Below are positions 42,615-43,906 of a stretch of DNA of 64,000 nt, piece after piece. Every line of letters begins with the position of its first letter. Position 1 is the first letter of the stretch. A program made the translations under genes and the position numbers. The notes below the pieces were generated by a model that ran no database searches, was not told where the DNA came from, and saw only the letters and a list, made by a program, of their open reading frames with translations. This DNA comes from Actinomycetes bacterium (GTDB lineage Bacteria > Actinomycetota > Actinomycetes > Nanopelagicales > Nanopelagicaceae): positions 1,116,001-1,180,000 of the forward strand of contig OX376642.1 in NCBI GenBank assembly GCA_947383695.1, written 5' to 3'.

Positions 42615-43493
42615 TTAGAGCCCTAAAGCACCCTCGATTTCAGCGCAGGCATGGGTTAAATCCTGGGCAACGATGACATCGGTGCAGGCATCCAGATCCC
42701 AACCAGGGCCGCCCACAATCACACGAGGTGCAGGACGGATTGCAGGGATTTCTCGGAAGAACTTTGCATCACTGTTTTGGCTCAACTGGGCCCATAAAAA
42801 TATTGCAGGTGGTGCTGATCTACGAACCATCGCATCAATTGCTTCGAGCGGAGTTCGGGCACCGAGAAAAAAGCTTTCAATCTTTTTCTCGGCAAGAGCT
42901 GCAGCAAGTGCATGCAGGGCAAGACAATGCATCTCTTCACCAACTGCTGCAAGTAAAACTGGTTGTGCATTTTTTGGATTCTTAATCTCTGGAACGCCCT
43001 CACGCATGATGCGTTTTAAGAGCTCAGAAAGCATGTGCTCTACTTCAATTCCAGAGCCATCTTCCTCCCATTCATTTCCGACCAAAAACAAAAGCGGAAC
43101 AATGACTTCAGTCCATGTAGCGATAACACCATTGTCTGCAATGTCTTTTCGCAAGACTGCTTCAATAAAGGTTTTATCGAGAATCTTGGCTGCTCTATGA
43201 ATTGAATCGACTAACTCTTCACGGACCTCAAAGTTATCAACCAACTTTTCAATCTTTAATGAACCCTTGTGTGCCTTCGCTTTTTCCGCGGCATCTGCTG
43301 GTGAAACACCAGTTGTAATCAATCGACGCATCAACGCTAACTTGGCTAAATCATTGGGACAGTAACGACGGTGCTCGCCCGCCTCGTGGCTCGACGGTCC
43401 AAGGCCATAGCGGCGATCCCAGGTGCGAAGGGTGGCTGGGGCTACTCCTATGCGGCGGGCGACCGCGGCAACGGTCAGTAGCTCCTCTTCCAT
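42615..43493 (-). CDS. MerR-family regulator with B12-binding-type sensory domains (CarH/LitR-like)
   Basis: 292 aa. Residues 5-75 are a MerR winged-helix domain (VARRIGVAPATLRTWDRRYGL). A helical domain follows with W142, nine residues, then E152-H153, exactly the Wx9EH signature of CarH-type adenosylcobalamin photoreceptors, and a Rossmann-like cobalamin domain with ExH (E187, H189) at the right distance. The residue after W142 is Glu, where CarH of Thermus has the His used in the light state. Target genes unknown. The ATG at 43493 has CACGAT at -12 to -7. Confidence 0.82.
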   Translation of the reverse strand: MEEELLTVAAVARRIGVAPATLRTWDRRYGLGPSSHEAGEHRRYCPNDLAKLALMRRLITTGVSPADAAEKAKAHKGSLKIEKLVDNFEVREELVDSIHRAAKILDKTFIEAVLRKDIADNGVIATWTEVIVPLLFLVGNEWEEDGSGIEVEHMLSELLKRIMREGVPEIKNPKNAQPVLLAAVGEEMHCLALHALAAALAEKKIESFFLGARTPLEAIDAMVRRSAPPAIFLWAQLSQNSDAKFFREIPAIRPAPRVIVGGPGWDLDACTDVIVAQDLTHACAEIEGALGL

Positions 43494-43568
43494 AGGCGTA
43501 TCGTGGCGTGAAGTGGCCCAACTCACCACCCCAAAACGCGAATTGAACAACTTGTGGAGCGGAAATAC

Positions 43569-43597
43569 TTGAACAACCTATGGCGCGGTTGTACAGT
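43569..43597 (+). promoter_or_regulatory. whiB promoter (-35 TTGAAC, -10 TACAGT)
   Basis: TTGAAC and TACAGT are separated by exactly 17 nt and the -10 is at -12 to -7 from the ATG at 43604, giving a leaderless message. This is one of the best sigma70-type promoters in the window. Confidence 0.7.
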
Positions 43598-43603
43598 ATC
43601 CCC

Positions 43604-43906
43604 ATGGCCGAAATTTCACGCTTACCCCGCCCCGTTGCAGATGAATGGGAGTGGCAGTACCAAGGTTCATGCCGCGAGCTTCCTGCTGAGATGTTCTTTC
43701 ATCCAGATGGAGAGCGCGGACCTCGCCGACGCAACCGCGAGAACACAGCGAAAGCTGTCTGCGCATCATGCCCAGTAATTGCTGCATGCCGTGCACACGC
43801 ACTTGCAGTGCAGGAGCCTTACGGAATTTGGGGAGGTCTTTCAGAAGATGACCGCCTAGCAATTCTTGGCAAGGACATCAATCCAGATATTTCACACGCA
43901 TCATAA
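43604..43906 (+). CDS. WhiB-family iron-sulfur regulator (WhiD/WhiB3-like)
   Basis: 100 aa. Four cysteines bind the 4Fe-4S cluster: GSC near residue 23, then CASCPVIAAC with the C-x2-C-x5-C spacing, followed by the GIWGG turn and a basic tail. MFFHPDGERG resembles the WhiB3/WhiD subgroup, and neighbourhood of groEL and guaB matches the whiD locus of Streptomyces (from knowledge). The ATG at 43604 is fixed by the promoter; the upstream in-frame start would lie inside the promoter. Confidence 0.9.
   Translation: MAEISRLPRPVADEWEWQYQGSCRELPAEMFFHPDGERGPRRRNRENTAKAVCASCPVIAACRAHALAVQEPYGIWGGLSEDDRLAILGKDINPDISHAS

Follow-up and report, generated by a model that had tools for sequence, protein, structure and literature searches.

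A CarH-like MerR-type protein with an altered cofactor-tail motif and a candidate operator in the divergent whiB promoter of Nanopelagicaceae

The window analysed here, a stretch of 64,000 nucleotides of contig OX376642.1 from an Actinomycetes bacterium of the Nanopelagicaceae (assembly GCA_947383695.1), contains on its minus strand a gene (42615..43493, ATG start codon at 43493) for a 292-aa regulator composed of a MerR HTH, a four-helix bundle and a Rossmann B12-binding-like domain. As the initial annotation had noted, it is divergent from a whiB gene, here assigned to the WhiB3/WhiD type (43604..43906, plus strand; Pfam Whib 8e-24), and 110 bp (43494-43603) separate the two start codons. 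The host genome is a single 1.43-Mb contig, and the named records among its close relatives include Candidatus Planktophila and Candidatus Nanopelagicaceae. Some records titled as Bifidobacterium breve or Streptomyces griseus MAGs (L086, L095, L115, L128 and others) carry a Nanopelagicales-type locus, and for that reason these titles look misassigned.

The DNA-binding domain (residues 7-71; 43281..43475, minus strand) belongs to the MerR family, matching Pfam MerR_1 at 2.2e-13 and 50.6 bits against a curated cut-off of 21.6. Both Pfam B12 domains fall narrowly below cut-off (30.5 vs 32.1 and 22.5 vs 23), and the NCBIfam CarH equivalog gives 96.1 bits, its cut-off being 400. Thermus CarH was aligned to residues 6-265 in a phmmer comparison with the PDB (5e-17). 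In the AlphaFold model (pLDDT 87), residues 93-286 match the Thermus CarH domain with a Z of 19.4 by structure comparison, and the other cobalamin-domain matches are photocobilin (Z 20.5), AppA SCHIC (17.8) and MetH (16.8). The predicted structure supports the view that the protein is of MerR type and that its corrinoid-binding fold resembles that of CarH. We also considered whether the host genome has another CarH-like gene and rejected this, the only further match (E 1e-4) being a weak one to a MerR-like frame of small size.

When aligned with Thermus CarH by phmmer, W142, E152-H153 and H189 correspond to W131, E141-H142 and H177, in agreement with the initial annotation, and E143, the Glu it had pointed out after the Trp, aligns with His132. 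The motif W142-x9-E152-H153, which is the adenosyl cap in CarH and here has Glu at residue 143, lies at 43035..43070 (minus strand; alignment), and E187-x-H189, the predicted lower cobalt ligand motif, at 42927..42935 (minus strand), followed by A192, where canonical proteins mostly have Gly. The regulator has the W-x9-EH and cobalt-ligand His of CarH and class I LitR, and it has no His after the Trp, the residue of the bis-His light state of CarH. The gene is found in 94 genomes of the order (E 1e-33 or better), from which 68 orthologues were aligned. Two relatives (G030 and G085) hold separate genes for canonical CarH-type proteins with Gly192 and Ser234 (L051 and L071, respectively), and these are excluded from the 68-orthologue counts. 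G139, W142, E152, E187 and H189 are each conserved in 68/68 orthologues and H153 in 67/68 (one R), a conservation which argues that the match of the cap and cobalt residues is not due to chance. Across the whole family (68 near and 94 far members), H189 is kept in 161/162 and E152-H153 in 159/162, one of the three members counted without the latter being unaligned. Position 143 is occupied in the orthologues by Glu (34), Ala (20), Gln (7), Val (4), Lys (2) or Ser (1), and by His in 0/68; one far member has His there, preceded by Gln instead of Trp.

The initial annotation had presented this missing His as the distinguishing feature of the protein, a role it does not sustain. Thirty CarH-like loci were sampled from 296 Actinomycetota genomes, each being the top match to Thermus CarH within its genome, and 29 of the 30 also have no His at this position, so it is not a defining feature of CarH. 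In light-responsive relatives, the His132 position is occupied by Arg (CtMerR), Gln (SasPcob) or Tyr (AbDPcob), and light still converts the CtMerR tetramer to monomer (PMC11796333). On the basis of the 30-locus sample and of that study, the missing His was rejected as the finding: the residue is no marker of light sensing, and a different light state in its absence is an already published idea (PMC10442372, PMC11796333). The H132A variant of Thermus CarH shows normal AdoCbl binding, yet it is mostly tetrameric in light (PMC10442372), and the same paper refers to an earlier report in which disassembly in light was seen. Of the light signature GxxW, EH, GxxH and GxxxP, the regulator carries three of four elements, with GEExH in place of GxxH; position 186 in the 68 orthologues is Glu in 55, Asp in seven, Asn in four, and Ala and Leu in one each.

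Base-off/His-on B12 domains are described by the motif E/DxHx2Gx41SxTx22-27GG (PMC8156234), the Ser of which hydrogen-bonds the dimethylbenzimidazole in CobDH (PMC3727330). The family of the regulator has ExHx2[A/P]x41WxQx24GG, which departs from the full motif in that the Gly and the Ser are replaced and keeps its spacing exactly. The Ser position is taken by Trp234 (42792..42794, minus strand), found in 68/68 near and 88/94 far members (the remaining far ones have Tyr in five cases and His in one), whereas in the canonical rows this position is S, A, T, G, V or P, and Trp in 0/29, the count being out of 29 of the 30 rows since L345 has a gap there. A second Trp, Trp265, is present in 66/68 near and 80/80 far members, the far count being that of an 80-locus set selected by position 192 (the criterion of the later recount included Trp265). 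From the alignment and from the position of strand 230-234 in the model, the side chains of Trp234 and Trp265 may fill the tail pocket. The domain is remodelled in its cofactor-tail region and conserved, with the adenosyl and cobalt residues retained. The initial annotation had not pointed to Trp234 and Ala/Pro192 in the tail motif, nor to the promoter dyad described below.

The family and canonical CarH form two separate branches (98% SH-aLRT; 133 rows, 37 canonical and 96 family) in a tree made by a quick method with a midpoint root and a warning of long branches, and the regulator does not group with CarH. The initial description of a CarH/LitR-like protein is supported for the fold, the adenosyl and cobalt residues and the arrangement divergent from whiB. 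Family members are present in 114/246 Actinomycetes genomes, a count reached after sorting 123 raw matches. The first far set consisted of 80 loci, chosen as best matches, and the remaining genomes of the class were added later. Of 102 non-order genomes with a match, 93 carry a family member, recognised in 92 through the GGxGW motif and in L368 through Trp234, six have the canonical type only (L264, L265, L366, L371, L373, L374), two have a degenerate one (L357, L358) and one is ambiguous (L369).

Among solved WhiB proteins, the divergent partner is closest to WhiB3 (8e-33 vs 1e-12 for WhiB1), and its four Cys and GIWGG, read from its sequence, are those of WhiB3/WhiD, a widespread redox regulator in Actinobacteria. 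WhiB3 is the orthologue of WhiD (PMC4255298). A whiB gene is divergent from the regulator in 67/68 Nanopelagicaceae loci, the remaining one starting at a contig end, and in 47/94 class-wide family members. In six loci (L213, L228, L231, L234, L243, L248), neither groEL nor guaB lies near the pair. All 47 intact whiB-linked class-wide members are aromatic at position 142 (42 Trp, five Phe), and of the 47 members without an adjoining whiB, 21 have Gln or His there, 25 have Trp and one is unaligned. Searches of the open-licence PMC literature turned up no report of whiB3 with a MerR/B12 partner.

The whiB promoter with the proposed operator, TTGAACAACCTATGGCGCGGTTGTACAGT (43569..43597, plus strand), is composed of a -35 hexamer TTGAAC (43569-43574) and a -10 hexamer TACAGT (43592-43597) with a 17-bp spacer, as compared with 19-20 bp in heavy-metal MerR promoters (PMC1526738). 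Between the hexamers lies the candidate operator, a 20-bp dyad ACAACC-N8-GGTTGT (43573..43592, plus strand), and an operator dyad in the promoter spacer is characteristic of the MerR family. The whiB start codon follows only 7 bases after the -10 (43592-43606), so whiB is possibly leaderless; some relatives with longer gaps have a ribosome-binding-like AAGGAG before whiB. A weaker second copy of the element is located 26 bp upstream (43543..43571, plus strand; PWM 22.2 bits), and a second copy occurs in 11/66 loci. With a permissive expression, the element was detected in 65/66 whiB-regulator intergenic regions (L030 having been dropped by a length filter), the remaining region holding a copy with two mismatches, and a stricter expression matches 50/66.

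Class-wide, the same element was recovered de novo from 44 whiB upstreams with a log-likelihood of 653 (best of 24 starts), compared with 86-92 in a control of three letter shuffles with six starts each. A score of at least 13 bits is reached by 39/44 of these upstreams, and in the other five pairs (L228, L231, L234, L243, L248) the element scores below 12 bits. In the host genome, one site was found at up to three mismatches of 23 positions, in the whiB promoter, and a reversed control pattern also gave one match. The operators that the initial annotation had suggested looking for near carotenoid and rhodopsin genes are thus absent at this threshold, and a single genomic site gives no indication that carotenoid or rhodopsin genes form a regulon of this protein. 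In genus g17 only, an operator-like 22-mer, identical in L320 (G147) and L321 (G124), forms a second copy upstream of a 579-aa MFS-type transporter (named by eye), overlapping its start region.

The site and the regulator occur together. At the level of the order, the site is present in 91/94 genomes with the gene and in 0/27 without it (p 6e-24), and at the level of the class in 41/114 genomes with the family and in 0/132 others (p 2e-16), p-values which overstate independence because the genomes are related. As for the three genomes that have the gene and no site, the contig of G076 ends inside the gene, G032 has an odd whiB match, and G106 has a more diverged copy that is visible in L060. 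The 27 order genomes without the regulator, several of which are incomplete, comprise 21 that also have no close whiB orthologue and six that keep whiB. The promoter is readable in five of these six, and the element is absent in 5/5; in all five, whiB adjoins guaB with no regulator between them. By eye, the -35 and -10 hexamers are still present in L271 (17-bp spacer) and L272 (19) and the element is gone. Loss of the regulator with retention of whiB is found in two genera. In genus g3, 10/10 sampled genomes (G007, G010, G018, G070, G091, G092, G095, G117, G119, G120) have neither the regulator nor a close whiB partner, and the three single-contig genomes among them retain the adenosyltransferase though the regulator is missing.

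As for the ligand, the adenosyltransferase PF01923 is found in 115/121 genomes of the order, including the host, where a 1171-aa ORF of MetH size (candidate MetH) also has a B12-binding domain, so AdoCbl should be available. In the class, PF01923 occurs in 112/114 genomes with the family vs 115/132 others (p 0.001), a weak association, given that 11 of the 17 genomes without PF01923 outside the regulator family belong to one family, f32. The genome G330 (L357, G330:C1:898000-907000), 100% complete by estimate, has no match to PF01923 or PF02572, and its regulator has an intact HTH, a whiB partner, a guaB neighbour, a weak site (15.7 bits) and a degenerate pocket, in which Val replaces His189 and the cap cannot be aligned. 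This degeneration would fit a corrinoid ligand, as a single case to which G188 (L358, G188:C1:798500-807500) runs contrary, since the latter has both transferase types, a whiB partner and an intact HTH, while its pocket is degenerate, with Asp at 189, and the site is missing. Complete B12 might not fit, because Trp234 and Ala/Pro192 replace the canonical residues of the tail motif. A corrinoid is nonetheless the probable ligand.

The family with its conserved residues, the gene pair, the promoter element and the loss of the element with the regulator can be read from sequence; we infer DNA binding by the regulator, repression rather than activation, a corrinoid ligand and a light or redox signal. 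The regulator would be dedicated to its divergent neighbour whiB3, which is very probably its target, and would bind the 20-bp dyad that sits between the two hexamers of the whiB promoter, thereby blocking RNA polymerase in the manner of CarH at its own promoter; the reading as repression is based on the analogy with CarH and on the 17-bp spacer. Its C-terminal domain would hold a cofactor, either adenosylcobalamin or a closely related corrinoid, between the four-helix bundle and the Rossmann domain, with W142, E152 and H153 on the adenosyl side and H189 ligating cobalt. The tail of the corrinoid would be bound in a non-canonical way, given the location of Trp234 and Trp265 in that region. Whether the cofactor is intact, or else photolysed, oxidised or absent, would determine how far the operator is occupied and thereby how much WhiB3, an Fe-S redox regulator, the cell contains. 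On balance, the protein is probably a local corrinoid-gated repressor of whiB3; a response to light is conceivable, with the odds somewhat against it.

A true CarH-type light sensor is an alternative to be entertained tentatively: in the dark, whiB would be repressed by an oligomer loaded with AdoCbl, and light would lift the repression by removing the adenosyl group, with no bis-His state involved. The retained adenosyl- and cobalt-contact residues, the three published signature elements (GxxW, EH, GxxxP) and the monomerisation in light of CtMerR, with its Arg at the His132 position (PMC11796333), speak for it, but GxxH is missing, the tail pocket is altered, no carotenoid or rhodopsin target was found in the host genome and the H132A variant of Thermus CarH remains largely a tetramer under light (PMC10442372, with disassembly in the earlier report). 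The two Trp residues, so widely kept, could alternatively line a pocket that excludes complete cobalamin, so that the protein would sense a different tetrapyrrole, such as heme, or a corrinoid without a tail, such as cobinamide. SCHIC domains have a heme role, and that of AppA is among the matches of the model. This reading is unlikely, however, as the cap aromatic is kept in 47/47 intact whiB-linked class-wide members and EH in nearly all members.

The two degenerate members that adjoin whiB (L357/G330 and L358/G188) might instead suggest that the domain is a structural relic without a cofactor and the protein a constitutive regulator of whiB, which is distinctly unlikely, because a relic would not keep H189 and E152-H153 in almost all other members. 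It is also conceivable that the predicted operator element, which lies in the whiB promoter and spans its -35 and -10, is recognised by WhiB itself or by a sigma factor. Its loss from all five readable promoters that keep whiB and have no regulator, together with the MerR-like placement of a conserved dyad between the hexamers, makes this very unlikely and favours recognition by the regulator.

Compared with CarH of Thermus thermophilus and class I LitR, the regulator shares the MerR HTH, the four-helix bundle and the Rossmann domain as well as the spacing of Trp, Glu-His and the cobalt-ligand His; it differs from Thermus CarH in its separate clade, in a tail motif where Ala/Pro has replaced Gly and Trp has replaced Ser, and in its likely target, whiB3 instead of carotenoid genes. 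CtMerR of Chloracidobacterium (PDB 8JBS/8JBT) is likewise a MerR-CBD protein without a His132 equivalent and is light-responsive (PMC11796333), but it has the full light signature and only 20% identity over the aligned domain. The Pseudomonas class II LitR PmlR2, another CarH/LitR relative, acts without a complete B12 domain and retains the four-helix bundle only (PMC9758184), whereas the regulator has both domains. For the WhiB3/WhiD proteins of Actinobacteria, to which the partner WhiB is related through WhiB3, the excerpts of PMC4255298 mention no MerR-B12 partner.

It may be, and we put this forward only tentatively, that a CarH-like branch with a Trp-plugged tail pocket directly links WhiB3, via one conserved operator, to a signal given by light or by the state of a corrinoid; no description of such a branch was found in the open-licence PMC literature. 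If true, this coupling operates in the abundant freshwater Nanopelagicales and in other Actinomycetes. With a dedicated and conserved regulator of corrinoid type and a defined operator, the input to WhiB3 would become testable in a system as small as one protein and one promoter, and a Trp-filled pocket would probe the limits to re-use of the B12 fold. The pair would also connect B12 or light with redox control in streamlined freshwater plankton.
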